From: Meira nashicola
Lineage: Eukaryota; Basidiomycota; Exobasidiomycetes; Exobasidiales; Brachybasidiaceae
Assembly: GCA_001600355.1 (NCBI GenBank)
Contig: BCJU01000016.1
Location: forward strand, 1-23,253
DNA length: 23,253 bases
Direction of reading: 5' to 3'
Shown: positions 3,785 through 23,253 of the stretch, one piece after another
How the letters are laid out: the number at the start of each line of letters is the position of its first letter
Numbering within the stretch: position 1 is the stretch's first letter
Translations under genes and position numbers: made by a program
Notes under the pieces: model-generated
Told to the model about the DNA's origin: nothing
The model's input: only the letters and a program-made list of their open reading frames with translations
Databases searched by the model: none

Positions 3785-5017
3785 CACTTCATTTAAATCA
3801 GATGAATCTCAAGCCACACAGATAGCCATTCTCGTACGATACATGTACTTTATCGGCAAGGTCATTTTTCGAAAATTAATATTGTATAATATATTGCTCA
3901 AAATATAAAGTTACATCAAAATCAAGTACGAAAGCGGTTGCAAAATTGTCAATGTAAGCCAATCATGTAGGATGAATCAATTAGAACTTTCGTATACTTC
4001 ACGAAGCTTTTGTATATCTTCCATCAAATTTGTCATCCTCACCTGAAGAGGACTATTTTTTCATTTCGGGTGATTCGAATAAAAGAGCGAGATGGGTCGA
4101 GATGACGTTACTTGAATCAAAAAACTAAGTGTTGAAATTCTCAAGCCCAAGAGGCCTTTGGATTTCTTTCACTTCGCGACTCAAAGAATAAATCCGATTC
4201 AGTAATTCATTAGGATTTGCTACCTTTTCATACTTTCGTTTTATTTGAAAGAACGATTCTCAATGGAATCTCATTATCTTTTCCTTTTGTTGAGGGTTCG
4301 CTTGCCGGCCAAGAAGTAAGCTCTGCATCAATAACCCCATCCGACTTTTTGCCCAAAAGATGCTGTAAAGTTGATAATAATTTTGACTTTTTGCAACCGA
4401 CAAATACGGCTAAAAAATCCGTTATGGCTGTACATTGGCTAGCATTACTTCCTCGATGAAATTTCAACTGAATACTTTATTTTTACTCGAATACGATGTC
4501 AAATAATGCAATTTTCATGGCAATGCCAACCCCAGTTTCTGAATCAGCCACAATATGTCCTCCCATTTGTTTGATTGTCATTCAACAAAATGCGAGCGAT
4601 AATTCTATATTAAGGCTATTTACATCTTCTTTTTGGTAGGCCTAAAATATTTGATTGCTTAAACTCCTTTAATATCCCATGCCTTGACTCACGAACAGCC
4701 ATGGTGAGAATATGCTTAAAGTTTTTCCCACACTTTTTCGCAAATTCAACTTCTGTTCGATCTGAAGGCATCGCGTGTGTAACAGGATCGATTTGTATAC
4801 CCTCTAAAGTTACATCTACATGTATAATGCCTGCTGTTGTAGCCTCTCATGCATTTGCCATTAATTTGACCAAAAATCGATGTGAAGCATTTAATCGATC
4901 TTTACAAATGTGTTGCGATTTGAAAAAGTGGATCGACCTAAAAGAAAAGTTTGGGCAATGATACAGTTGGGCTCAGTCAATTACTTGTCTGAACTTGCCA
5001 TCTTTTCTCACATGCAG

Positions 5018-5057
5018 ATATAAAACAGAGAAAAGTAGAATATAAAGCAGAGAAAAG
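5018..5057. repeat. Two-copy direct repeat, 18 bp, period 22
   Basis: ATATAAAACAGAGAAAAG (5018-5035) recurs as ATATAAAGCAGAGAAAAG (5040-5057), 17 of 18 identical. It falls between the H-box and N-box remains of the kinase relic, consistent with local duplication during decay. Confidence 0.6.
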
Positions 5058-5308
5058 AACTTTCGAAGAAATCAGCCGTCTATCCCTAGCACGTTGGAAC
5101 CTTTTATTTTCATCATCGGCAGCATTATCAGTTTTATAAAGGCAAATTGAAATCCACCAAATTGTCTACCAAAGCTGAGAGTATATCAGCAGAATCGGTG
5201 ATGCTCTGCAAATAAGAAACCAATTCTGTCAGCAAAGTATTAGACTTTTCTAGGGCATAACGTAGGGTATCCGTAATAGCCTCGTCCACGTGTAGAATAC
5301 CAAGTGAC

Positions 5309-5322
5309 GGTGTCCGGTGTCC
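5309..5322. repeat. 7-bp tandem duplication inside kinase relic
   Basis: GGTGTCC occurs twice head to tail. On the minus strand it lies directly after the H-box codons. Reading past only one copy brings RTPSLGILHV into frame with the following dimerisation helix, so the second copy is a frameshift of seven bases. Confidence 0.75.
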
Positions 5323-5744
5323 GCAATCTGTGTTGCACCTTTTTGCCTAAAATGTTCAGCGCTTGTGCCGATTCTTCAACACGAACATGTAACAAAGCAT
5401 TGCTCAATGAGATTCCTATTAGCTCAATCATCTGACGCCTGAAAACATTCAGTACCAAACTTTTTCTCATCAGATAATCATGTAATGTAACTCAATCGGA
5501 AATGATTCAAGCTCTGTTCCTTATTGTGCCTTACGTGGATGGCAAGATCGTCAGATGACAGAGAGAATGGGTACATAATGAAGATATGCGGACAGGAATC
5601 TGATACGTTGAAAGTGGCCAAGGTGAGTGATAGAAAAATACGCTGAAGTGTAAGAAGAAAAAGCAGGAGCATAAACCTTGCAGATCATGCGAAACGCCTG
5701 AGTGCACGGTTTAAGTAGCCGATAGGAAACTTTTTGCCACATTG

Positions 5745-6145
5745 AGATTGTTAATAGATCATTCTAGATAATGCTAAAATTGCCAAGTTAAATAGTCATG
5801 CATAATTTTTGATCTTTGGCCGATAGATTCTAATGTATTAGCACGTAGGGAGATAGAAGTTAGTAATAAGAGATCTTTAATATTATAAGCATAGGTATAA
5901 CATAAAGGGATGACCAGATTAACGAGTAGAAAAGCATGTAGTATACATACTTATATACATCTAGAAGTCTGACTTCGTGTTATAAATTTAATTTAAGACA
6001 GGATATTACAAGACATATATTGAATAGGTATTCTAGATGATATATTTGAATAATAGCTTATTTTCGTACGTACAGCTGGATTGTATAACTATATTCTAAC
6101 TTCACATCAAACAAATGCATTCGGTTTATATAAAGATGAATTACA
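5745..6145. other. AT-rich gene-free stretch
   Basis: Very AT- and TpA-rich sequence between the kinase relic and the 3' end of the transporter gene. It has the same texture as the island at 19905-20560 (runs such as ATAGGTAT, TATATA). No frame is supported. The proximal part presumably contains the transporter 3' UTR. Confidence 0.45.
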
Positions 6146-7681
6146 TCATTTTTTTTCAAAACTTTCTTCGCCATTCTTGTTCCTGTTCAAGTCTGTTGCT
6201 GTTCCAACTTCAAGAATGTGGGGACGAAATTGATTGATAGCTTGAGAATTATCAAGTTTTCCGTCTCCAAAAATTGATTCGATTTCTTCTGGGGTAAAAC
6301 CTTTTGTTTCCGGGTAGTAAAGTACGACGTTGATGATGAAAAATACTTCAACCGCAATATAGACCAGGAAAAGTTTCCAACCAATAGCTTCCAAGGCGAT
6401 AGGATTGATCCAAATATTGAAAGTCAAAGCAGCAGCCAAAGTAGAAACGCTGAGAGCCATTCCTTTTGCTCGTATGCGATAGGGTAAAATTTCGGCAGGA
6501 TACGAAACTGCTAGAGGTGAAAGGGCAAAGTTGTAGGACATGTTGAACAAGAACAAAAAAGCGATAAAGCCGCGACTGGCAGCAGGAGAGTTTGTACGAA
6601 TATAAGTAGCATTCAAAGCGGTTGCAACACTATAAGAAATCAACATTCCGATTGATGATGCCAAAAAGAGCTTTCTTCGACCGAATCGTTCGGTTTGACT
6701 TGCTGTAGAGACTGCAATGAGTAAATTAAAGATTTGCAAACATGCATTAAAGATTGCTTGATGCCGAGGATTTGTGATTCCAACGGTTTGCAAAAGGGTG
6801 GGTAAGTAATAAGTGATGATGGAATTTCCAGTCCATTGTGTTGCAACGGCAAGAGAAAGAATGATCCACGCTCTACGCCTATTGGCAGGTGTTCTGAATA
6901 AGTCAAGTAATGAACTTTCACCGTCTTTTTGATCTTGTTCGATTGCTAAACGAATTTCTTTTACTTCATTCACGACAAGGACATCATTTGAATCTCCGTT
7001 TGCGTGATATTTTGCTAGGATTTCATGGGCTTCTTCAATTTTACCCTTTGCAACCAACCAACGAGGAGATTCTGGACAAAGAGGTAAAAAGAAGACTTGA
7101 ATAATGCTAGGTGCTGCTTGAAAGAGACAAGCTAAACGCCATGACCAAGAACCGTTGATAGAGAAAACAGCATAATCGATCCAAGCCGCTGCCACTGCAC
7201 CAACATAGAAGCAACACCATGAAAAGCTCACAACAATAGCACGTTGACGTGGATGAGCAATTTCTGTCAGGAAAGAAGGTGTGGCGACCAAGGTGATACC
7301 ACTTCCTAACGAAACGATGACACGACCGATTATCCAAAGTGCTCGTTGATGAAAGCCGTCATTGGGAATATGAATGGCAGTCAAAGCTGCACCGACTATC
7401 ATAATTATTGCACCAATGAGCATTGTACTTGGACGACCAATACGATCGCTGAACCATTGTCCAAACCAAGGCCCAACAATTAAACCAATCACACCAGCCA
7501 TGCCTAAAATACCGACTGCGTTACTGTCTGGTGGTTGCACTGCTTGAAAGAATGATCTGAGTGTGAGTAGACCGGAGAATAAAGCGCCATCATAACCGGC
7601 AGTAAAAGAAGAAATGAAGGAAAGGGCTATCCAAGTATTGAGCTTGGCGCGACCGGAATCTTTGATCCAACTTGAGACCAT
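6146..7681 (-). CDS. MFS sugar/H+ symporter-family transporter
   Basis: A 511-residue plasma-membrane transporter of the MFS sugar porter family (lactose permease / hexose transporter type), unbroken by introns. Family signatures are in order: GYDGALF near residue 29 (TM1), DRIGRP at 79-84 (loop 2-3), PESPRWLV at 203-210 before the large central loop, ERFGRR in the matching C-half loop, YPAEILPYRIRAKG in the TM10-11 area and YPETKG after the last TM. Length and about 12 hydrophobic segments fit the family. It is transcribed divergently from the GH3 gene with a shared upstream region of about 430 bp. A TATAAAAA lies about 60 bp upstream of the ATG on this strand. Context suggests uptake of a glycoside or disaccharide to be hydrolysed by the leaderless GH3 enzyme; the substrate itself cannot be read from sequence. 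Confidence 0.93.
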   Translation of the reverse strand: MVSSWIKDSGRAKLNTWIALSFISSFTAGYDGALFSGLLTLRSFFQAVQPPDSNAVGILGMAGVIGLIVGPWFGQWFSDRIGRPSTMLIGAIIMIVGAALTAIHIPNDGFHQRALWIIGRVIVSLGSGITLVATPSFLTEIAHPRQRAIVVSFSWCCFYVGAVAAAWIDYAVFSINGSWSWRLACLFQAAPSIIQVFFLPLCPESPRWLVAKGKIEEAHEILAKYHANGDSNDVLVVNEVKEIRLAIEQDQKDGESSLLDLFRTPANRRRAWIILSLAVATQWTGNSIITYYLPTLLQTVGITNPRHQAIFNACLQIFNLLIAVSTASQTERFGRRKLFLASSIGMLISYSVATALNATYIRTNSPAASRGFIAFLFLFNMSYNFALSPLAVSYPAEILPYRIRAKGMALSVSTLAAALTFNIWINPIALEAIGWKLFLVYIAVEVFFIINVVLYYPETKGFTPEEIESIFGDGKLDNSQAINQFRPHILEVGTATDLNRNKNGEESFEKK

Positions 7682-7740
7682 GATGAATTGTTTGATGATG
7701 ATAATTTGAAGGGCTGCATGAATGAAAAATAAAATGATGC

Positions 7741-7748
7741 TTTTTATA
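7741..7748 (-). promoter_or_regulatory. TATA box of transporter gene
   Basis: TATAAAAA on the minus strand, about 60 bp upstream of the transporter ATG at 7681. Confidence 0.55.
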
Positions 7749-7865
7749 CTTTTTCAACAAATTGCAAGAGTGCGGGGTATGGGGAAGATCACATTTGATT
7801 CCCCAGATCATGGTGGGGTAGTTGCAATGAAGGAGGAAGTTTTCAATTATATCAAGATTATTTTA

Positions 7866-7877
7866 TGCGATCCCCAC
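7866..7877 (-). promoter_or_regulatory. Candidate cluster operator GTGGGGATCGCA
   Basis: Minus-strand copy of the recurring element, one base shorter in the centre than the best copy at 16613. It lies in the transporter/beta-glucosidase promoter. The role is inferred from recurrence only. Confidence 0.35.
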
Positions 7878-8033
7878 CAGAGCAGTGTAAAAATTTCACC
7901 ACTCTTCTACAAGTTTAGCGAAAAGCCACAACCGGCCAAGTGGGGAGGTGGCTACATCTTTGCGCTGGGCCGACGCATGCCACGCAACAATAAGTATTGC
8001 TACTTGCATATAATCGGGCAAGGGTGGGGGTAA

Positions 8034-8046
8034 GTGGGGAACTCCG
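8034..8046 (+). promoter_or_regulatory. Candidate cluster operator GTGGGGAACTCCG
   Basis: Located about 10 bp before the GH3 TATA box. The 13-mer GGTAAGTGGGGAA ending here (8029-8041) recurs exactly at 16608-16620. Its position next to the core promoter makes it the most suggestive copy; binding is inferred. Confidence 0.4.
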
Positions 8047-8055
8047 AAAATTGGA

Positions 8056-8063
8056 TATAAATA
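8056..8063 (+). promoter_or_regulatory. TATA box of GH3 gene
   Basis: TATAAATA starts 28 bp before the first ATG (8084) and 55 bp before the second (8111). A transcription start 25-35 bp downstream would fall at or after 8084, so the ATG at 8111 is the better start. Confidence 0.6.
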
Positions 8064-8110
8064 GGAGCCATTTTTTATTGTAAATGTGTCTTCTATCTCA
8101 TCATTACAAA

Positions 8111-10837
8111 ATGTCAAAAATAAGCACGCTGGCTGAAGTTGCAAGAGAGCAGGCCAAAGAAATATGCGATCAATTGTCATTGGATGAAAAGATTGGATTG
8201 ATCGGAGGACGTGATATTGCTCGTATGAATGGGATTGAAAGATTCAATGTTCCTTCCTTGAAAACATCTGATGGTCCAAGTGGAATTCGTGGTGCACAAA
8301 CAGGTCTAGAATTTGTTGTTGGATTTCCCTTTTTTCAACATCAGCCAAGTAAACCTCTTGGGTCGACTGTATTCCCATGTGCAACAGCTTTAGCCGCAAC
8401 ATGGAATAAAGACTGCGTCAAAGATGTGGCAGAGGCCATCGCCAAGGATGGAGCGAGTAAAAACGTAAATATTGCACTTGCCCCAACAATCAACATCATT
8501 CGTGATCCTAGAGGAGGAAGGAGTTTTGAGTGTTTCTCAGAAGATCCGCTACTTACGGCTCAGATTGGTGCAGCTTGGACTTACGGTTGTCAAGACTTGG
8601 GAAAGGTGCTCGTTTGCTTAAAACACTTTTGCGGAAACGAATGTGAAACAGAAAGACACCGTAGTAACACAATCGTTGACCAGATCACTTTACGAGAAGT
8701 GTATATGCGACCTTTTGAAATGATTATTAAAACTCTCAAAAGAGATGATCATCTTGAACCGGCTTCAATCATGATGGGTTACAATCAACTAAATGGAGTA
8801 CCATGTTCAACAAATTCATTCTTGATCAAAGATGTCTTACGTAAAGAATGGCAGTATAAAGGTCTAACAATGAGTGATTGGTTCGGGACAGCAAATGGAG
8901 AAGAGAGTGTGAAAGCAGGGTTGGATATTGAAATGCCGGGTCCACCTGTCAAAAGAAGAAAAGAAGGTATGCTGCAATCTGTTCAAGACGGAACATTAAA
9001 CAAAGATAAGCTCAGCGAGCTTGCTTGTAACGTTATCAGCATGTCTCTTTTAGGCAAATCTCTTGCCACTTACGATTCTACACGACCCGGTCCCCAATCA
9101 TTCACCAATGATCAAATCAACGACGGAAAAGATCAAGAAGAAGCAGCATCCGCAAAAGAACAAGCACAGCTTGAGAACATCTTAACATCATCAGCCGCTT
9201 CGTCCTGTGTCCTTCTCAAAAATTCAAATCATTGCCTACCAATGCAGCCAAGTCAGGTGAAGAATGTTGTCATAATTGGTGAACCGGCAATCTCACCCAT
9301 CTTGACGGGAGGAGGTTCTGCCAAGATGCCAGCATACGACCACATTTCGGCTTTTGATGCCATTCAAGATGTTTTAGGACAATCTGCAAACGTTCATTAC
9401 TATTCAGGTGGATTCAAATTGAGCAATTTGATCAATCCACCAAACAAACAGCAACTTCAAAATCAAGAAATCACTCTTACTTGGCATAAAATGAAAGTAG
9501 TCACATCCGATGGAGCGTGTGAAATTGATAGTGAGCCATACCATACCGAAAATCGGCAAACTACTGAATTGAGAAACTGGTTTGGAGGCATGCAAAGTCC
9601 AGATTCGCATTTTGCCGTTCGGACTTCATTCAAGCTCCAACCAATACATCAAGGCAATCATACGATCTCTTTACAAGCATTTGGACAATTAGATGTAAAA
9701 GTGTTTGAAGATGATGAAGAAAGGAAGCAAATTGCTCAATGGTCCCATAATGGAGAGTCTAGTGGACCGGAATTCATGTTCCATCCGCATAAGCTTTTAG
9801 AGAAGTACTCTTTACAAACAAAAGAAGGGCAAACTTTCAAAATAAGATTGGAGTATCGTATGCCAGTCAAACAATATGGGCCTGTACTTGAGAAAGGCGG
9901 GGCTTTTAGATTTGGAATCGAAGAGCAACCTATTCTATCAAGGCAAGAGGAATTGCAGCAAGCTATACAAGCTTCAAAGAATGCTGATGTTGTACTTCTG
10001 TTCACAGGTACTGGACCAGAATATGAAAGTGAAGGAATTGATAGGCAAGATATCGTTCTACCTGACGAACAAGATGAGATGGTGAAAAAGGTTACATCAG
10101 CCGTCTCATCAGAAAAGACGAAAACAATCGTTATCAACGCAAGTGGCTCGGCTGTCTCTATGCCTTGGTCTGATCATGGCAATGTTCATGCAATTTTGCA
10201 ATCTTGGTTCGGCGGACAACGTTGTGGAAAAGCAATTGCCGAAATTCTTTTTGGCAAAAGTCAACCTTTAGGTAGACTCCCAATGACTTGGCCAAAATCT
10301 ATAAAAGATCATAGCTCGTTTGATCATTTCCCTGGCAAGAAAGATGGCACAGGTTTCTCTATTTCGTACGATGAGCAGACCTTGGTCGGTCACAGATGGT
10401 ATGAAGCGAAATCAATTACACCTCTTTTTTGGTTCGGTTTTGGATTGTCATTTAGCAACGTCGAAATTTCTGCTACCAAAACACAATTCCAGATGGATAA
10501 AGACGGAATCGCTCAAATTTGTATGAACGTAAAAAACTTGTCAGAAGAATACTCTGCAAAGCATACGATTCAATTGTATCATTTAGACGGAGCAGGATTC
10601 TCAAGTCATCGGGCAAGAAAACTTGTCGGTTTCGCAAACACTGATATCACACCAAAAGGCAGTGAGCTTCTCACAATTGAGGTAAACAAGGAAGCGCTTG
10701 CAAGGTGGAACGTGGACTTAAACAAGTGGACGTTAGAAGAAGGCGCATATAAAATCTGCATTGCAAGTTCTAGTAATCCAAACGACGAGTATTGTCGTGT
10801 TTCTATTGGTGTCACTGAAATTAGCCATTGGATGTGA
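8111..10837 (+). CDS. GH3 beta-glucosidase with PA14 insert, intracellular
   Basis: Retaining beta-glucosidase that removes terminal glucose from beta-glucosides. From the ATG at 8111 it has 908 residues. An in-frame ATG at 8084 adds nine residues, but the TATA box at 8056 argues against it and the context ACAAAATG favours 8111. Order: GH3 N domain with KTSDGPSG (51-58), RDPRGGRSFE (131-140), KHF (171-173) and TMSDW with nucleophile Asp256; then the second GH3 domain interrupted by a PA14-like insert (about 440-600); GPEYESEGIDR containing the likely acid/base Glu (639 or 641); and a C-terminal Fn3-like domain. No signal peptide is seen, so it should act in the cytosol on imported glycosides, matching the divergent transporter. 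It is uninterrupted by introns and converges on the hydrolase gene with 34 nt between stop codons. The aglycone is unknown. Confidence 0.93.
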   Translation: MSKISTLAEVAREQAKEICDQLSLDEKIGLIGGRDIARMNGIERFNVPSLKTSDGPSGIRGAQTGLEFVVGFPFFQHQPSKPLGSTVFPCATALAATWNKDCVKDVAEAIAKDGASKNVNIALAPTINIIRDPRGGRSFECFSEDPLLTAQIGAAWTYGCQDLGKVLVCLKHFCGNECETERHRSNTIVDQITLREVYMRPFEMIIKTLKRDDHLEPASIMMGYNQLNGVPCSTNSFLIKDVLRKEWQYKGLTMSDWFGTANGEESVKAGLDIEMPGPPVKRRKEGMLQSVQDGTLNKDKLSELACNVISMSLLGKSLATYDSTRPGPQSFTNDQINDGKDQEEAASAKEQAQLENILTSSAASSCVLLKNSNHCLPMQPSQVKNVVIIGEPAISPILTGGGSAKMPAYDHISAFDAIQDVLGQSANVHYYSGGFKLSNLINPPNKQQLQNQEITLTWHKMKVVTSDGACEIDSEPYHTENRQTTELRNWFGGMQSPDSHFAVRTSFKLQPIHQGNHTISLQAFGQLDVKVFEDDEERKQIAQWSHNGESSGPEFMFHPHKLLEKYSLQTKEGQTFKIRLEYRMPVKQYGPVLEKGGAFRFGIEEQPILSRQEELQQAIQASKNADVVLLFTGTGPEYESEGIDRQDIVLPDEQDEMVKKVTSAVSSEKTKTIVINASGSAVSMPWSDHGNVHAILQSWFGGQRCGKAIAEILFGKSQPLGRLPMTWPKSIKDHSSFDHFPGKKDGTGFSISYDEQTLVGHRWYEAKSITPLFWFGFGLSFSNVEISATKTQFQMDKDGIAQICMNVKNLSEEYSAKHTIQLYHLDGAGFSSHRARKLVGFANTDITPKGSELLTIEVNKEALARWNVDLNKWTLEEGAYKICIASSSNPNDEYCRVSIGVTEISHWM

Positions 10838-10871
10838 AAATATGTTATTATGAATGAAGAGTATTTATTAA

Positions 10872-11917
10872 TTATTGATGATTTGAAATCCATTGTAGTA
10901 GATTTTTATTCCAATGATTTAGATGGCCACCTAATCCGAGAGTCTGAATAAAAGGTATTAGTAAGAGCAACCCGTTTTCTATCCTTTAAAAATGAACATA
11001 CCATTGCGGGACTGAAATGATTATGGCCTTGCAGCTGTAAAAGTGTCGGTCGTGGTATAGTAGGTGAAAGTTTGTTCCAACTATTTACAAGCTGCTCGTA
11101 CTGAGGTGAAGGCATGTCAATTTTTGCTTTCTCCCATAATGTCTATAAATTTACGTACCGGTTCTAAAACTTCTTCGATAAGATCATACTGTGATGTTAA
11201 TAGAAGCGTAGGCGTAGTATCGTCAGATTTCGTTCTGAGAGAGATCAAGTTTCGTTTTCTTAAATCATCTCCAAAGTATGTTTTCAGTACGTTTATACGT
11301 TCTGCTGGAGATTTTTCAAACGATGCAGGTGGATTTGCACATACAAAACCAGCTACTCCTACGGCTTGATTCTCTTGCCATGTCTTTTCTTCTTCCGAGC
11401 ACCAAAGGTAGGTAGCACAATGAATAGCACCAGCTGAAGTGCCGAAAAGGTATGTCCGTTGAAAATCAATTTTGTCTCGGAGTGCATCTTGGATTGTAAG
11501 AAACTCTAAAGCTAAAGAAATATCCTTGCCACCCGAAGGATAGACTGCCCCATGTTGAGGACATAAACGATAGTCGATTGTTGCACAAGCGAAACCGTTC
11601 ATGGCAAAGAATATTCCTACATTTTGGTAAACGGCCCCTTGCGTAGCTTCTAGCCTTCTATCGCCTTGCGTTAAGCCACCGCCGTAAACGAAAACGACGA
11701 GAGGTAATTGATCCTGCACTTTCGTATTTTTTGAGACAAAAAAGTCGAGCATATGACGTGGATGAGGACCGTAAGAATGGGATTCGATATCGACATATTT
11801 CTTCTTTACTCCAAATGAATTCAGTTGTAGAGGTGTTACTTTTGACACCGTTTTTTGTACAACGACAGGTGTAGGTAAGCCATGATCGAATTCTAACAAT
11901 TCATAATGTAGATCCAT
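10872..11917 (-). CDS. Alpha/beta hydrolase, candidate depside esterase, three exons
   Basis: Alpha/beta-hydrolase-fold esterase/amidase resembling the BD-FAE / kynurenine-formamidase group. I place three exons: 11917-11159, 11100-11002 and 10943-10872, joined by two 58-nt GT..AG introns, giving 309 residues. Exon 1 carries the oxyanion loop YGGGL (78-82), nucleophile GTSAG (Ser161) and a likely acid Asp245 in TSQYD. Exon 2 supplies the catalytic histidine in LQGHNHFSPAM (His279 or 281). Exon 3 ends in a helix-like tail. Without splicing, the frame stops at 11117 and lacks the histidine. A TATATAAA lies about 60 bp upstream of the ATG. It is divergent from the cupin gene. That pairing suggests hydrolysis of the ester product of flavonol ring opening; a formamidase or other ester substrate remains possible. 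Confidence 0.8.
10944..11001 (-). other. Intron 2 of hydrolase gene
   Basis: 58 nt, GTATGT donor, CTTACTAATAC branch region and TTATTCAG acceptor. Removal leads to a continuous C-terminus TLGLGGHLNHW. Confidence 0.8.
11101..11158 (-). other. Intron 1 of hydrolase gene
   Basis: 58 nt, GTACGT donor, TTGAC branch-like site and CCTCAG acceptor. Both exons are in phase 0 at the junction, and removal joins Asp245-bearing exon 1 to the histidine-bearing exon. Confidence 0.75.
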
Positions 11918-11973
11918 CTCTCAAATTGCGTTTATATGAAGAGTCGTTGTGGTGATTAGTTGAAGAATTATGT

Positions 11974-11981
11974 TTTATATA
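11974..11981 (-). promoter_or_regulatory. TATA box of hydrolase gene
   Basis: TATATAAA on the minus strand, about 60 bp upstream of the hydrolase ATG at 11917. Confidence 0.55.
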
Positions 11982-12022
11982 GCGATATTTAGCGTACACA
12001 TACCCACGGGATATTAACACCG

Positions 12023-12036
12023 GCGGGGGATTCGCG
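12023..12036 (+). promoter_or_regulatory. Candidate cluster operator GCGGGGGATTCGCG
   Basis: Copy of the recurring element in the middle of the hydrolase/cupin promoter. It matches the best copy at 16613 in the G-run followed by GA(A/T)TCGCG. Confidence 0.4.
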
Positions 12037-12205
12037 CGAAGCAAATGCTCGGGTGGGTGGGGTAGGACCCGGTCGTTGGGTATGGAAATGATGCATGCTG
12101 CAATAGAATGCGGTGTATCATTTTTACTACATATAGATGTGCAATTGACATTAAAATCAAATTAGGATACCCACTTATTTTTGTTCTACAACGACAATTA
12201 CAGTC

Positions 12206-13351
12206 ATGACGCAATCAACTTCCATTCGCTTAGCTCCTCACGAGCACAATCTTACAAGCAAATTGCCTATTAAGCAAGGCAGTCAATCATATATATTACC
12301 ACAACTATCCGGTGAATCACTTTACGTTAAATCCACCAATTCAGTCGTTCGTTTACCTGCTGGTGAAACGTACACTGATGGTTCGTTTTCCGTTGTGAGC
12401 TCAGAAGGAGCAGAAACAGACCCAATCATGCCTCATAAACATGCTACTGCTCATGACACTTTTCTTTGTTTGCGTGGATCTTTACAAGTGTGGGCAAATG
12501 ATCAAAGTAGAATTCTGCAACCTGGTGATTTTGCATCAGTACCTCCTGGTGTGATTCATAGTTATGCCCAAAGAAATGCAAGCTTTAATGATTTCATTGG
12601 TGTAATTGTCCCAGCAAAATGGGAAGACTTTTTCCGAACATTAGGAGATCCAATTGACGAAGCGTGTGTAATCTTTCCAACAGGTGATCAAGCTCCTTTT
12701 CCAGTTAAAAAATTTGCGCAAGTGATGCAAGAAGGACATGATGTTATTCCACAGCCGCAACATCAACTTGTTGAACCAATTCCCTTCCAAGAGAGTGATC
12801 AATTACCAACCGAAGCTGGCAAACCTTACTTTCTCAAAGCAGACCATGGACCTAAATTTCTCCTAGCTGGACAACAACTAGAAATTCTATGCAAGCCTAT
12901 CAACACCAATAATCGATTCACTATGGCTTGGCTTGATGGATCTTCTCGTTTGAATGACTCTTATTTGGGAGACAATGATGCTCTTTTACGCTTTGAACAT
13001 ACTTACACCTACCTCAGAGTGATCCAAGGTACTGCTTCCCTTCGAATCAAGAGGTCGCAACATGAACGTATTGATCAAGAGATTCTATTTCATGGCGAAA
13101 TGGCGCTCATTACTCCTAATGATTCTTTCCAAATCGGATTTTCCACTCCTTACGTTCGCCTATTAATCATCACAGGAGCAAAAGAAGGTTTATACAAAGG
13201 TGGTCTTGAAACCATTTTTGAGATTTTAGGAACTCCAGTCGCGAAGAATATTGTTTTTGGAGGTGGAAATGGTTTTGCTGCAGGAGCCAAAGTATCTGTC
13301 GCTCAAGTTCAAGAACAAGCTCGAGGTATTGAAGCAGAAATCATTTTATAA
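12206..13351 (+). CDS. Quercetin 2,3-dioxygenase-like bicupin
   Basis: A 381-residue double-cupin protein of the quercetinase (flavonol 2,4-dioxygenase) type. This family cleaves the heterocyclic ring of flavonols with O2, releasing CO and a depside. The N-terminal cupin has PHKHATAHDTF (76-86) and PGDFASVPPGVIHSY (106-120). His77, His79 and His118 match the family's three metal-binding histidines. The position of the usual Glu ligand (His77 + 7) is Asp84. The C-terminal cupin (about 260-340, GTASLRIKR then GEMALITPNDSFQIGF) lacks the metal histidines, as in fungal quercetinases. No signal peptide is seen, unlike the secreted Aspergillus enzyme, so it is probably cytosolic. Single exon. It is divergent from the hydrolase and 157 bp upstream of the regulator on the same strand. 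Another cupin dioxygenase or isomerase activity cannot be excluded. Confidence 0.8.
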   Translation: MTQSTSIRLAPHEHNLTSKLPIKQGSQSYILPQLSGESLYVKSTNSVVRLPAGETYTDGSFSVVSSEGAETDPIMPHKHATAHDTFLCLRGSLQVWANDQSRILQPGDFASVPPGVIHSYAQRNASFNDFIGVIVPAKWEDFFRTLGDPIDEACVIFPTGDQAPFPVKKFAQVMQEGHDVIPQPQHQLVEPIPFQESDQLPTEAGKPYFLKADHGPKFLLAGQQLEILCKPINTNNRFTMAWLDGSSRLNDSYLGDNDALLRFEHTYTYLRVIQGTASLRIKRSQHERIDQEILFHGEMALITPNDSFQIGFSTPYVRLLIITGAKEGLYKGGLETIFEILGTPVAKNIVFGGGNGFAAGAKVSVAQVQEQARGIEAEIIL

Positions 13352-13508
13352 ATTTTCTAAAAATTTTCTAAAGAGAATGTTGTATCAAGTTATCTAATTA
13401 AATGTGTTTACGCGCAATTTCACTGTGCTGGGCGGCGCTGCGCCCCCGCAGGCCCGAGTTAAATAAATTAAATTCTGAAATAACCCACTTTCTCTTCTCC
13501 CTCACTCA
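13352..13508 (+). promoter_or_regulatory. Cupin 3' end and regulator promoter
   Basis: Short spacer between two co-oriented genes. It contains a GC-rich stem (13430-13445) followed by CCCCCGCAGGCCC, then AT-rich TTAAATAAATTAAATTC as the only TATA-like sequence. The minus strand of the GC block reads GCGGGGGCGC, a Mig1/CreA-like core. Confidence 0.45.
13430..13445. repeat. GC-rich hairpin upstream of regulator
   Basis: GGGCG and CGCCC arms enclose GCGCTG. It stands out in AT-rich DNA and shares GCGCTGCGC with the palindrome at 3771-3784. It could be a cis element or a short inserted GC cluster. Confidence 0.45.
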
Positions 13509-16438
13509 ATGACAATGTCTAATCGAGTTATAAAGAGATGGCAATGTCCATCGTGCAATAGAAGTTTTGGACGGTAAGTGAGCAAGCCAATGCGTTGAGA
13601 CATTTCCAGCAATCGTCAAGTATTAACCTCCTTCTTGCTGATCCGGATTAGAAAAGAACATATGCAAAGGTAAGAGGCTTTTTTTAGATGTTTTGTTTTC
13701 AGCTACTTATTCTCTTTATTTTGATAAATGGCAGACATGTAGACACACTACATGGAGCATTGACACGCTTCAAATGCGAGCAATGTACAAAATCATTTGG
13801 AAGGAGGGATATCTTTTTACGACACATGAAGAAGATTCACGATCAACGACTTTCATCCGCTTCTCCTTCCTTTGTAAGTAGAGGTAATCTAGACGACCAA
13901 GTAAATATTCCTGATTTACCTCTTTCACAAGGCAATCGGAGCCAAGCTGCGATATACAGAACGAGAAAAGCATGTAAAAGGTGTGCAAGGCTAAAGATGA
14001 AATGTAATGGTCAACAGCCTTGTCAAAGGTGTACTAAAGACATTCGTTTAAGTAGTTCATGTTCTTATCATCAAAATCCAAGAGATCGTTCACAACCGGA
14101 CTCGGAATTCGCATCAACAAGCCGTCAAGTTCTGGATAAGACGCCGTCAATACCTCTACAACAGAATGCTGAAGACTTTATTGCTAGAGAAAGAGAACCA
14201 GATGGAATCATGGCGCTTGCATCAGCCGCTCTCGCAGAAGATATGTATGAAAACAATACTTCAACCATTATGGCGCCAATTCCTGACGCAAGAACACATG
14301 ACCTTCCATCCAGTGCTCTTGATAGCATGATGGTATTTGATGAGGGTGATATGCACTCTTCCCTCTTTGCTGATTTGCTTGACGAAAGTAAAGATACATT
14401 TAGTTGGCTCTTTTCAGGAGCGTCTTCTGGCTTTGGTGTGGATGGGATGACATGGCCCAATTCAAGCGTGGCAAATACAGGTGCTATAAACGAAGGCGTT
14501 CATGTGTCTAAAAACGATGGCGAATTTTCAAGATTTGAACGTAGATTGGAAGACACAAATCATGAAAACACTGTCGTCAATTCAGATCAACATCGTCATG
14601 AAGCACTAAACAGTCATATAGAAGATGAAACTTTACACGACGAGCATTTGAAGCGGAACGATAATGTTAATCTAGTTTGGCCCAACGGTCGATCGTCTGA
14701 AAGTGCGGCACAAGAGCTAACGATTGTTCCACTATCTATCGAAGAAGTAGATGCAGACATTCTAGCATTCGAGAATACATACCAAGTTGTTCAAGCTCAA
14801 AATGGCATCCAAGACCGACTGGCGAGCTTGACCGGAATTTCTGATTTATCTCCTATGGAAAAAGACCGAGCAAGAGAAATGTTGGAAAATTCATCAACGT
14901 TAGCAATCAATGCATTCGTGCAACTTTACTTCGAACATTACGATCAGCTTTGTCCGATCATTCATCGACCAAAATTTGATCCTAATACCTGTCACCCATT
15001 TCTGCTGAGCGCTATATGTGCGATCGGAGCAATGTATTCTGCTTTGCATAAAGCAAACATTTTTGCCAATAACCTTATGGTATTGGTCAATCGCACTTGG
15101 TTTGCCAATTTTGCAAAACAGAGTCGCAATATGGACAATATTCAACTGATGCAATCATTGCTGTTGAACATTAGCTTTTTCAGAAGTAGCGGTAATCGGA
15201 GAATGCTTGAACTGGCAGAATCAGCCCGATCTCCATTGACGACTATGATACGCAGGAGTAAACTATTGGAAATGTCTAAAGATGATCTCTCTCAAACTGA
15301 ATCACGCACGACTAGTTCGCAATCGCCAAGACATTCTATGACTACAGAAGAGAAGATTTCACCGCCTCTACAAGATGACGATAAAGATTGGCTCAGATGG
15401 ATTGAAATCGAGACCGGAAGGCGGTTAGGGTGGATGTTCTTCATTTGTGATGTTGAACTTAGTGCCGTTTGGAATTTACCACCGAGCTTTGGATTGCACG
15501 AATTGAAAGCGCAACTTCCGAGCGACGAACGTAGTTGGCGAGCTAGCGGACGATTGACTTGGGCTAGACTACGTACAACAAGAATGCCTATATATCTTGG
15601 AAATTTGATAGAAGAATTACAGAATCCAAGTCTGCAAGTTGATGAGGCAGAAATTTCCTCGAACCTCAATCCAGCATCTGCTGCGCTGCAAAAAGTTCTT
15701 TTCGCTTGTGCACTTTGCTCTTTAGGATTAGCTTTAGGGAATATACGTGCAAGTCCGATGTCATTCATCACAAATGAGGCGAATCAGCGTCACGTTTCCA
15801 TTTGCTCTACTTTCGTCATTCGGGAAAAGACTCGTAGGAGATTGGGCAATGATTTTGCAGAACTGTTGGTACGATTTTCACTTTTGCGACATAAAGTTGA
15901 CATTATCGATTTACAGTTACTTACCGGAAGAGCTGCAAGGAATGCTGATATCTCTGTTGCCCTTAATCGAATTAAATCCGCTCTTTTTAGCAATGGCGAT
16001 CAAAAGGGTTTGATGGCGCATATAATACATTGCGGCAGAATCATACACCTGTATCGATCGAGGCCAATTGATTCGACATATGCCGACTGCATACTCTTTT
16101 ATGCAATTTCAGCTCTGTATGCATTTTCTTGTCTTTGGACAGATCTTGAAATTAATTTCAAGAAGTTGACTGGCGAAAAAAGGACAATTAATGTACAGAA
16201 TGAATTGTGCATCGATGAAGAAAACTTTTTGGACGTAAATTCTGATCTCGATATCCTTACTTGCCGTTTAACAATGAAAGGTGTAGGTTGTATCACCTCT
16301 CGAGATGCGCCTAGTAAGATTATGACAATTTGTGCAGAAGAGCTCCTAGTTCGGCCAAGTGGTACTTCGTGGCCAATTGGGAAATTATTGGGCAATATCG
16401 CCAAGGAGATTGGTTCCGGAAACAAATACACATCTTAA
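13509..16438 (+). CDS. Dual C2H2 / Zn2Cys6 transcription factor, three exons
   Basis: Nuclear DNA-binding regulator, 928 residues after splicing exons 13509-13573, 13652-13669 and 13735-16438. Finger 1 is C13-x2-C16-x12-H29-x4-H34 and exists only after splicing; both introns split Arg codons (22 and 28), and the middle exon is 18 nt. Finger 2 is C42-x2-C45-x12-H58-x4-H63. A Zn2Cys6 cluster follows: C108-x2-C111-x6-C118-x5-C124-x2-C127-x9-C137. An Asp/Glu-rich region (about 190-360) may activate. The fungal-specific TF domain spans roughly 418-640 (QLYFEHYDQLCPIIHRPKF; later GRRLGWMFFICDVEL), split by a polar Ser/Asp-rich insert. A frame from 13688 is open but would start inside intron 2 and lose finger 1. 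Its place beside the cupin suggests a pathway-specific activator. A second in-frame ATG at 13515 is possible. Confidence 0.87.
13574..13651 (+). other. Intron 1 of regulator gene
   Basis: 78 nt, GTAAGT donor, GGATTAG acceptor. It splits the Arg22 codon inside zinc finger 1. Confidence 0.75.
13670..13734 (+). other. Intron 2 of regulator gene
   Basis: 65 nt, GTAAGA donor, TGGCAG acceptor. It splits the Arg28 codon just before the first finger histidine. An upstream acceptor at about 13702 would run into a TGA within eight codons. Confidence 0.75.
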
Positions 16439-16901
16439 TCTTCGCTTTCTATTAGATGAATTGGATGTTGGAATATTGATTCAATGACAATTATATTCTA
16501 TAAAACAGAGAGCCTTTTATCCCTGCATCCCCGTGCATATAGTCTTCTGCCACCCTGTCAAGATCTATTTGTTTGCTTGCCATGTCATGGTTGTGGAGAA
16601 AAGGACAGGTAAGTGGGGAATCGCGATAGAGGCTAGAACGCTCGCTTCCGAACCATCAGGTGAGAGGGGGCGACGGATGCATTTAAGATTAAAGACTATA
16701 CCGTAGGAGTGATGGCTTATTTGGCTGCGTGTGGGGTAGGTACAATATTCGCACGAAACTATTATGCAAGGATTCAGGCATGATAGCAAGTTCACTATTA
16801 CTTGCAGTGATAGAGCAGTGTGTCTTGTAAGATAGGCTGCATTCACGATGTAAGCACATTATTGATCATACACTGACAGCTATGTTTATAAAGGGGGATT
16901 C
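16439..16901. other. Convergent intergenic region with orphan operator-like sites
   Basis: Lies between the 3' ends of the regulator and VOC genes. It nevertheless holds the best copy of the G-rich element (16613-16626), a GTGTGGGGTAGG near 16732 and a TTTATAAAG near 16885. A 39-codon frame from about 16588 is not convincing. I see no gene here. Confidence 0.4.
16613..16626 (+). promoter_or_regulatory. Candidate cluster operator GTGGGGAATCGCGA
   Basis: Best-formed copy of the recurring element. It is preceded by GGTAA exactly as at 8029-8041. It has no obvious promoter to serve, since both neighbours end here. Confidence 0.35.
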
Positions 16902-16945
16902 TTAGAGGTAGTCTTTTCGCAGATATAATCCCTCACTTTTTCGTC

Positions 16946-17305
16946 TCACCTCGACAAGATTTCCATCTCGATCTCGAACATATCGCTGTTGATTCGTCCT
17001 TTCGCTCCTGTACGCTGACCTGGTCCTTCAATGATTTCTATCCCATGCTTGTTTAGCTCATCTTGAGCTTGTTGGATAGATATACTGATTACTAAGCATA
17101 CATCTTGTGATCCTGGTACGGGATGCTGTGCTTTCGGTTCAAATTCATGTCCGGCAATGTGTGAATTGATCTTTTGATTCCCAAATCCGAGCGCGTTACT
17201 ACCTTTACTGAATTGTGTATGTTTCATGCCAAGTTTTATATAAAAGTCGATTGTTTTACTAATATCTTTGCAGGTGATCAATATGTGATCAATTGATTCA
17301 ATCAT
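16946..17305 (-). CDS. VOC-superfamily (glyoxalase-like) protein, C-terminus frameshifted
   Basis: Small single-domain vicinal-oxygen-chelate protein, 119 residues as read, related to GLOD5-type proteins. VOC proteins bind a divalent metal and act as lyases, dioxygenases or thiol transferases; the substrate is unknown. Visible features are DHILITCKD (His7, first metal ligand), FGNQKINSHIAGHEFEPKA (His49, second) and GPGQRTGAKGRINS. After INS the family normally continues (I/V)Y(F/V)RDPDGNL(I/V)EV, with a metal-binding Glu. Here the open frame ends in an atypical tail, while the next frame reads RDRDGNLVEV and runs to a TAA at 16902. One base is missing near 16975-16980. So either the gene is freshly broken or there is a sequence error. 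The ATG context is ACAAAATG. Two G-rich elements lie 160-210 bp upstream. A structural role in the cluster is inferred only from position. Confidence 0.65.
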   Translation of the reverse strand: MIESIDHILITCKDISKTIDFYIKLGMKHTQFSKGSNALGFGNQKINSHIAGHEFEPKAQHPVPGSQDVCLVISISIQQAQDELNKHGIEIIEGPGQRTGAKGRINSDMFEIEMEILSR

Positions 17306-17467
17306 TTTGTATTAGATGATAGATGTGGGTAAAATGTGGCATGAACATGCAAAGTGGAGAGCAGCTCCTCGTAACGTATTAGCGTCACTCTATCAGCATA
17401 TGCAAAAGCAGTTGGCACACCGCGACAATTTAAACCACGCTTTCATTCTGCTCGATTAGAGTTTTGT

Positions 17468-17480
17468 GTGGGGATAACAC
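17468..17480 (+). promoter_or_regulatory. Candidate cluster operator GTGGGGATAACAC
   Basis: G-rich core matches the recurring element but lacks the CG half. It is about 165 bp upstream of the VOC start. Confidence 0.25.
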
Positions 17481-17496
17481 CTTTAATTTACTCTAT

Positions 17497-17511
17497 AATG
17501 GGGATTGCCGG
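17497..17511 (+). promoter_or_regulatory. Candidate cluster operator AATGGGGATTGCCGG
   Basis: Variant of the recurring element with a CCGG half after GGGGATT, about 195 bp upstream of the VOC start and 17 bp beyond the previous copy. Confidence 0.25.
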
Positions 17512-19260: not shown

Positions 19261-19904
19261 TAATTTATCTTACTCCGTTCATGTATGTTTCCTTGGCGAA
19301 ATGCCACTCGGTTCTCAATATAAAAAGGTGTTTGATGTAATAATGTAATAGCTTCAAGTCATGGTGTAACACAACCATAAGGTTTGACGTTGCCATCTTA
19401 AAACCGCAATCACTTATTTAACTGTTCCACAAACGCCAATCACAGTCATTGAGAGTGAAGATACTGATCACATTTTTGGCAAATAAGCCTCTACGTCAAC
19501 GACACCATTGTAATCGAGAATCAGCTCCGATGCAAACGAAGGTGTTGGGTAGGAGAGTTACGTGATTAAATCTATTCATATTATACGCTGCCTTCTCTAC
19601 CCACACAGGGGCTCAGCAGTATCGGGTAGGGAAGTAATGCCAGTGCTCAACCCACTTGAGGTGAAATATTAATAAGAGAGTGAAAAGTATGTTCGCGGAC
19701 GGGGACGCTGTTGAATCTTTTGCAGAGCTGACGAGGATCACTTCTACAATGCAATTGGCTGAATAGCCAGCCTCGTTTCCTCCTACCCATACGTAGAAAA
19801 GTCTTCGCCGTCAATCGCGTTTTAGGCCTACAGGGTCATGGACTGGGTGCCTGAAAATACACTGAAGACGTAAAAAGGCGTTATCCAAATGAGGTGAGTG
19901 TAGA
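19261..19904. other. Gene-free stretch with GGGTAGG elements
   Basis: No gene is supported. GGGTAGG-type sequences recur on both strands (near 19545, 19595, 19625 and 19785), two of them forming the inverted repeat at 19592-19634. Confidence 0.4.
19592..19634. repeat. Inverted repeat with GGGTAGGGAAG arms
   Basis: CTTCTCTACCC (19592-19602) and GGGTAGGGAAG (19624-19634) are reverse complements at 10 of 11 positions, with 21 nt between. Operator-like or a remnant of a fold-back element. Confidence 0.4.
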
Positions 19905-20560
19905 ATTAAACCTAGGATATAAGATTTAATTAATTTATATACCAGTCCTTGAATAATCATGCCTATCAACAAGTATAATCAATACTTTTCTAGAAATATA
20001 CTTATACATATATAGGTATAGTAGTAATAGTCCTTTAAATACTTTCCTTAGGACTTATAGCTTATACATTTTAGATAATAAATCTTGTTTTAAATTTTTT
20101 CGATATGATTTAAATTAAATAAGTAAGATTGTTAATCTAATATCGATACAAATATGAAATGTTGTTTGATGTATTGTAAATTTTTTCCATATAATAAAGA
20201 AATAGTGTTTTATAAAAGAATATTATACCTATTATCTAAAGTAACTTAGTAAATCTGTAAATAAAATAAAACTTTGTATATAATTCTTTGATAATATTGT
20301 TAAATCTGCTATTAATTAAAAGACCATCCGATTTATCTAAAAAGAAATAAACTTTTGTTATTTACTTCCTTGTCGTATTATATTAAATTTTCAAAGTAAT
20401 TTTAAGAAGTATCTTTAATTAATTTTCTGTTCTATTTATAATTTTCTATTTAATAAGATTTATTAGAATGAATTACTTTTTTTTTATCTTTTTAGTCTAA
20501 TACTTATATTTTAGTTCTACTATTAAGGATTTATTTTTCTCAGGAACAAAGTGGCTTCCT
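19905..20560. other. Very AT-rich, TpA-rich island
   Basis: About 650 bp dominated by A and T with few CpG, no open frame of note and abrupt edges. Candidates are a RIP-like mutated transposon relic, an inserted organellar fragment or a simple AT-rich spacer. No mitochondrial gene motif was recognised. Confidence 0.5.
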
Positions 20561-21239: not shown

Positions 21240-23253
21240 TCGTCCTACGAAGACTCAACGATCGTTTTAGCTTGATCAGGCCAGGGCTGCGTGGGTAAAG
21301 AGAGTTGGCGTATGTCCCCATATGGGCCCCCTGTACCTTTCACAAGCGTGCTCACACCTATAAGTTTCGCAATTTTTGGGAAGTGCATATTCGCAAGATG
21401 CGCATTACAGAATCACACACTTTACCTGATGACCTCCCGGAGAAATTTGCAAGCTGTACAACCGATACGAAAGAACCAATGAACCCTTTGCGCTACGGTT
21501 GCGCCCAGGCGTTTCTACTGTATTATCTCTCCGCAAATTTCTACAGATCTAGTTGACCCAGAATGTCAAAGCCAACACTGATATCGTGGTGGGTGGTCGG
21601 TCAACAGGTTATTGAAAATGAAATGGGCAGGGCCACGATTCATTTTGTTATTCACCACTTTCTTATATAAGGGGAAAATTCGAGCTCGATATGACATAAT
21701 TATGAAAAAAGGAGAAAAGCGTAGGTATACGAAAGTGCACTCAATTAGACGTATGAAAGCAAGTAGATCGAGTATACATCAGAGCTTACGAAGCTTTTGA
21801 AAGCAGGGTAAGGAATCCGTTCAGGTAGGCAGAAACATAGCACGAATTCTTGACCTTTATCAGGCATAAATCTAATCTGTTTTCTTTTCTCATAAAAACG
21901 GTCCTGTAGCTAAGCAACAAACTTAAATGTTTTCTGGAAATAAAACGTACGCGAAGAGACTCGAGCTCTTTTTCCTTATAATGAGACTCCTACACTTAAG
22001 GCAAGCATGCTGAACCAGGCTTTGTCACAAATCTCTCATAGAGCTGGTCAATAAGGGAGAAATTTGTTTCACAACAGAATTTTGTTTAGAAAGGTATTTG
22101 AGTTGGTATTCAAGATGGTATCCAAGATGATGATTTGAAAAGTTTAAAAATATTACTGCTTACTCAAATTGCGAGATTTTAATTAGTATAACTATATCTA
22201 CAATCATACGTGTAACGAACACAGTTCCAAGCCCAACCATTTCACCTCGGCTAATCGAGCTCTTGTTCGCTAAGCTTATCCTACACAATTCTTATTTTTG
22301 CGCCCTGCACTCCTCTCTCATTGGAAGTACACGCAAATCATGTAGGAGATTTAAGAGTAGTTCTAGTAGCAATTGATTTATCAATATAGCTTGAGCTTTG
22401 GCACTAGGATTCCGATACATCCTTGATTGAAGACACATAGTTTGTTTCACAAAGGGATTCGCCTTTTTTTTTTAGAAGGGATTTTTCGTTTTTATTTTCG
22501 GGCAAATCTAAACAATAATCTGGCACCTGCTATTAAAATTGTTTCTCATTGCTTTCCTCAAGAAATTCTTGTGAGCGACACTTCTGCGCTTCCCTCACTG
22601 AACACTGCTCTCGGAAGAATCCACTACAATTCGATGTAGCCATAAGAGAGTCAATGATTTAAATCTTAGAGTCGCAAATAGGAATGAATTGTTATCAATG
22701 TTCTCTGTACAACGCTTTTGAACTCTAGTTATATCACTGCCTTTTTTCTTTTTCACATGAATTCGTTCTCATCCGAAATATATCTTAAACCCCATATACT
22801 GGGTGACTGGTATATAATCTGTTATGCGTAGAAATGTGTCGAAATGGTCAGTTAGTTTCTCAGTGTATTAACCAGATTAAGATTCAACGTAACGGAAAGA
22901 TTAAATTGAGCAAATAGAACCGTCGCCTTCCATAGTTGTAGTGAGCGCCGACCCTTTCATCTTCATCATCCATTGCTTAGATATTTTTTAGCGAAACAAA
23001 TGTTATGATGTTTTGAGTGACAATTTCACTAATCTCTGTCGAGGTACATTTCAATGCAATTCCACCTTTCCAACAAAATTTTCTTGGATGCCTATTTCAG
23101 ACTCTGCTCTGTTCTAGGAGAGGAGAAAGGAGACTGATTTTGGACAAGCAAGAGGAAAGCACGATTTTTAGAATACCCAAAGACCTTTCTTATAAATTGC
23201 TACGGACACGTATTTTTTGATCAAACAACGGAACTGTACAGTAAAGTCTTACT
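21240..23253. other. Gene-free right end
   Basis: About 2 kb with only short open frames and no family motif. A TATATAAG at about 21664 has no supported gene downstream. Confidence 0.45.
22105..22128. repeat. 12-bp tandem repeat, two copies
   Basis: GGTATTCAAGAT is followed directly by GGTATCCAAGAT (11 of 12 identical). No associated gene. Confidence 0.55.

Follow-up and report, generated by a model that had tools for sequence, protein, structure and literature searches.

We analysed a stretch of 23,253 bp from the exobasidiomycete fungus Meira nashicola (GenBank assembly GCA_001600355.1, contig BCJU01000016.1). This stretch, called the window below, is the entire contig C16 of a genome of 17.88 Mb in 20 contigs. 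Between positions 6146 and 16438 it contains five genes with open frames, encoding an MFS sugar porter (minus strand), a GH3 beta-glucosidase (plus), an esterase of the alpha/beta hydrolase type (minus), a bicupin (plus) and a C2H2 plus Zn2Cys6 regulator (plus). They make a credible cluster for intracellular catabolism of an aryl glucoside, the most interesting part of which is a family of quercetinase-fold cupins of an aspartate type. Direct support exists for the gene families, the open frames, the packing of the genes, the divergent promoters and the cupin's structural match. The GH3 and esterase genes are convergent with 68 bp between them, and the regulator starts 157 bp 3' of the cupin stop. 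Introns were predicted from splice signals and from the way in which motifs continue across them. A preliminary description had counted six adjacent genes; five are present with open frames at that position and match their Pfam families, and the sixth, a VOC gene, appears to be a duplicate that is broken. The features are as follows.

6146..7681, minus strand: MFS sugar porter, candidate glycoside or sugar importer (511 amino acids; Pfam Sugar_tr, 4e-85)
7682..8110, no strand: divergent promoter region of the porter and GH3 genes (429 bp), with five GTGGGG words (7813, 7940, 8024 and 8034 on the plus strand, 7872 on the minus strand)
8111..10837, plus strand: GH3 beta-glucosidase (908 amino acids; Pfam GH3 N- and C-domains and an Fn3-like domain)
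10906..11917, minus strand: alpha/beta hydrolase, esterase (spliced product of 317 amino acids with GTSAG and GHNHFS motifs; top PDB match 4zrs)
11101..11158, minus strand: inferred esterase intron (58 bp near the 3' end; splice signals GTACGT..CAG)
11918..12205, no strand: divergent promoter region of the esterase and cupin genes (288 bp), with GTGGGGTA at 12057
12206..13351, plus strand: quercetinase-fold bicupin (381 amino acids; Pfam Cupin_2; structural match)
13509..16438, plus strand: regulator with two C2H2 fingers, Zn2Cys6 and Fungal_trans domains (928 amino acids after splicing; introns 13574-13651 and 13670-13734; Pfam Fungal_trans and Zn_clus)
16946..17305, minus strand: VOC/glyoxalase-like frame whose C-terminal end lies in another frame; excluded from the set of pathway genes

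A quercetinase-fold bicupin with aspartate at the metal site

Bicupin quercetinases led the structural comparison of the cupin by about 17-19 Z units over the next listed entry. The protein has the bicupin quercetinase fold, in common with Bacillus subtilis YxaG and the Aspergillus japonicus enzyme (1juh/1h1i), although it is only 18-20% identical to these bicupins in the structural alignment. Its putative metal ligands, H77, H79, D84 and H118, lie in the N-terminal domain; the second domain is devoid of an H-x-H-x4-D/E motif, as is presumably also the case in the A. japonicus quercetinase. The three histidines were kept in 21 of 21 aligned rows and are predicted to bind the metal; they occupy the same places as the three histidines of YxaG, the A. 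japonicus enzyme and Streptomyces QueD. The cluster cupin differs from these enzymes at the fourth position of the metal site, where all 21 rows have aspartate (Asp84) in place of glutamate. In quercetinases this glutamate is the fourth ligand or catalytic carboxylate, and our alignments placed Glu at the corresponding position in sites 1 and 2 of YxaG, in 1gqg and in QueD. One aligned protein, P0017, also has aspartate at this fourth position, and its second domain carries glutamate. The residue preceding Asp84, His83, was likewise fixed. Because of this Asp in place of Glu, the exact compound handled by the cluster is unproven.

A contig scan for bacterial relatives of the cupin gave three loci from 12 matched stretches. 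The H-x-H-x4-D motif was found in a 182-residue frame of L032, the one locus in which the matched frame was inspected, and the neighbouring frames in the other two loci, L033 and L034, gave no functional hint on inspection.

The other genes of the cluster and their promoters

The porter scored 249.6 bits with the TIGR00879 sugar porter profile (cut-off 237.8), and its top PDB match was the D-xylose-proton symporter 4gby. By its sequence it is a member of the sugar porter subfamily, with glycoside uptake as a candidate role. The GH3 protein aligned across residues 15-889 with its best PDB match, 3abz (3.4e-118), the Kluyveromyces marxianus BglI type of GH3. The likeness extends over nearly the full length, but Pfam gives no PA14 match for the insert region of the cluster protein. 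In GH3 catalysis an aspartate is the nucleophile and a glutamate the acid/base. S255-D256-W257 and E639/E641-G642 did not vary among the eight rows compared (the query and 7 of the 71 matches with E<=1e-100). The protein has both GH3 domains and both catalytic regions of a beta-glucosidase. It had been called leaderless, and no hydrophobic N-terminal stretch is visible in it, as judged by inspection and without signal-peptide prediction.

The alpha/beta hydrolase gene of the preliminary description is present, although its 267-residue open frame is incomplete. Splicing out the intron extends this frame to 317 residues, and the second exon supplies the GHNHFS motif, with which the GHNH segment of 4zrs, the best solved match (6.2e-28), is aligned. 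Pfam assigned the protein to BD-FAE (54.7 bits)/Abhydrolase_3. The GxSxG and C-terminal histidine motifs fit a phenolic-ester hydrolase of the feruloyl type, with putative activity on depsides or aryl esters.

The dual zinc-finger regulator is present (Zn_clus, Fungal_trans), after correction of its start (13509) and of two introns; the first C2H2 finger is complete only once the introns are removed. The C2H2 assignment was made from the Cys/His spacing because the second finger scores 17 bits, under the Pfam cut-off of 27. A short relic of the C-terminus of such a regulator, 65-68% identical to the cluster protein, was found on contig C6 (L028:3103-3498) beside a frame that resembles an aldo-keto reductase (named by eye). 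The 7-kb stretch of L028 had no match to any other cluster protein.

The word GTGGGGWA, which resembles the CreA/Mig1 core SYGGGG, occurs five times in 6001-17500 (7813, 8034, 12057, 16613 and 16731) against 0.39 expected (Poisson P 5.6e-5), an enrichment to be taken as a lead only, since the motif was picked after inspection. The genome holds 611 copies, against 430 of the word read backwards. Outside frames of at least 100 amino acids, three copies were found in 1,652 bases of the cluster, while other loci had four in 24,208 bases. CGG, a half site of Zn2Cys6-like proteins, was not enriched when the frames were masked in the same way (24 in 1,652 against 377 in 24,208 bases). A conserved promoter shared with a sister sequence, the upstream extension of the GH3 orthologue P0026, was dropped as a candidate, the score of 43.7 against the window not being significant (mean 25.4 and maximum 48.1 in 40 shuffles).

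The expected ending of the VOC frame, RDRDGNLVEV, was found in another frame, whereas a paralogue (71%) at C2:3662891-3663217 reads through to RDPDGNLIEV. We probably have here a degenerate duplicate; an assembly indel may be an alternative cause of the break. Because of the broken end and the intact-ended paralogue, the VOC protein was discarded as a pathway enzyme.

Chromosomal setting and relatives

Six-frame searches of the M. nashicola genome gave one match each for the cupin and the esterase. Apart from the cluster genes, the top-scoring GH3 was 34% identical and the top-scoring porter, out of dozens of sugar-porter matches, 32%. The genome also contains seven matches of the intradiol-dioxygenase family and one GH78-like match, whose products could serve downstream or upstream steps. 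No sign of a foreign origin of the cluster was found by base composition, a weak test: the fraction of guanine and cytosine was 0.395-0.42 in its genes and, across 81.9 kb of mixed coding and non-coding sequence from other loci of the genome, 0.383.

Some segments of the left flank (1-2601) have 80-90% matches elsewhere, one set close to the C2 end (3815558-3817671 of 3834998) and another at C6:73053-75291, which suggests a duplicated subtelomeric block. Positions 4072-5448 have a 71% match on C9 and C14. The last 212 bp (23042-23253) are 98% identical to C8:109756-109967, and given this match the contig end may fall at a repeat. A zinc-type dehydrogenase at 1499-2525, split across two overlapping frames of at least 100 amino acids, is apparently a pseudogene. 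Four further flank frames of that size had no Pfam match, and intron-rich genes could escape such a search. The cluster thus appears as an island of open genes in a contig that bears repeats and is probably subtelomeric, although the window shows no TTAGGG telomere array. By eye, 19900-20520 is AT-rich, and it has no open frames of 100 amino acids.

The closest named relatives of the cupin and the GH3 protein were from Acaromyces, Pseudomicrostroma (now Microstroma) and Jaminaea, all Exobasidiomycetes. Linkage in relatives was judged from the source-contig sizes recorded with the protein matches; as a control, the window's own cupin and GH3 were both recorded at 15,444 bp, as expected of linked genes. 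For GH3 and the regulator, the 7,993 candidates with most words in common were scored. The GH3 orthologue P0026 (79%) and the regulator orthologue P0022 (78%) were both recorded with 28,047 bp and 4 contigs, so that these two genes are probably linked in one relative. Among the candidates scored, the regulator search gave P0022 and two distant proteins only. None of the cupin matches lay on a 28,047-bp contig, the 82% identical cupin P0002 being on 5,595 bp, and the Acaromyces (883,226) and Microstroma (1,048,928) cupins had no GH3 partner on a same-size contig among the 71 matches. The signs of a conserved neighbourhood are indirect and concern GH3 and the regulator in one relative; cupin and GH3 were not seen together in these two named cupin carriers, and their linkage beyond M. 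nashicola is unproven.

A proposed intracellular route and its alternatives

In the route that we propose, the porter would import an aromatic beta-glucoside, the leaderless GH3 enzyme would remove glucose inside the cell, the cupin would use O2 to open a ring, aromatic or O-heterocyclic (in the flavonol case yielding CO and a depside) and the esterase would split the resulting phenolic ester. The adjacent C2H2 plus Zn2Cys6 protein would be the likely activator. We infer the import of the whole glycoside, the identity of the substrate, the order of steps and the regulation. That the cluster serves intracellular catabolism of an aromatic beta-glucoside, with a flavonol glucoside such as isoquercitrin as leading substrate, is a reading to which we give about even weight. 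The intracellular route of the preliminary description agrees with a sugar porter adjoining a GH3 gene without visible leader. Its flavonol-glycoside catabolism is retained in part: import, deglucosylation, ring cleavage by a cupin and ester hydrolysis fit the families, but the flavonol substrate is not established, the cupin having Asp for the metal-site Glu.

Both this aspartate and the lack of a GH3 partner on a same-size contig for the cupins of the named relatives weigh against a flavonol-glucoside cluster. The former would be explained if the cluster broke down some other aromatic glucoside and its cupin belonged to a separate dioxygenase family, the Asp type, that has kept the quercetinase fold and not the flavonol reaction. 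The constancy of the aspartate, even in P0017 with its glutamate in the second domain, and the fixed His83 favour such a family, whereas the wide lead of the bicupin quercetinases in the structural comparison and the conservative nature of the replacement argue against it; we consider it rather unlikely. The latter would fit a chance juxtaposition, in a gene-collecting subtelomere-like region, of two unrelated modules: a transporter and GH3 enzyme that handle cellobiose-like sugars, and a cupin and esterase that act on some aromatic compound. A separate divergent promoter serves each of these pairs, and copies of the left flank lie near the C2 end and at C6. However, GH3 and the regulator, which flank the cupin/esterase pair on opposite sides, seem to be linked in a relative whose proteins are about 79% identical, and the flanks hold no other intact Pfam-matched frame of at least 100 amino acids, intron-rich genes possibly escaping this search. 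We judge chance juxtaposition improbable. The broken VOC gene and the 65% regulator relic at C6 could also indicate the remnant of a decaying cluster that may be losing function, but the frames of the five main genes are open, in two cases once introns are removed, and the catalytic motifs are kept, so that this is highly improbable.

The classic fungal rutin route is secreted. A bolder proposal, offered tentatively and with well under even confidence, is that the Asp-type quercetinase-fold bicupins form a separate, widespread fungal dioxygenase family, one member of which has in this lineage been joined to a dedicated regulator in an entirely intracellular pathway. A plant aryl glucoside would then be taken up intact and its ring opened after deglucosylation, in contrast to the secreted route.

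No fungal cluster of this layout was found in a literature search covering titles and abstract openings. In the parts of the sources consulted, Aspergillus flavus cluster 32 is alike in that a quercetin dioxygenase gene, AFLA_096260, was studied with a Zn2Cys6 transcription factor (PMC7663156); the other genes studied there are a salicylate hydroxylase and npp1, and no transporter/GH3/esterase layout was seen. Of the fungal quercetinases surveyed, two are given as extracellular and one, VdQase, as putatively cytoplasmic (PMC8120277). Gluck-Thaler and Slot (2018) reportedly described gene clustering around plant phenolics. VdQase of Verticillium dahliae is a cupin protein with reported quercetinase activity and no predicted signal peptide, whose gene model includes C2H2 and fungal transcription-factor domains, the domain types of the cluster regulator (PMC4462102). 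It differs in being a 1047-residue model with a homeodomain, and the same portion of that source describes no sugar-handling neighbours.

If true, the reading of the locus as an aryl-glucoside cluster would yield a small, testable set of genes with which a fungus could use plant phenolic glucosides inside its cells. Among the fungal genes named after quercetin dioxygenase there would then be a group of the Asp type with a putative reaction, and such names should be read with caution.
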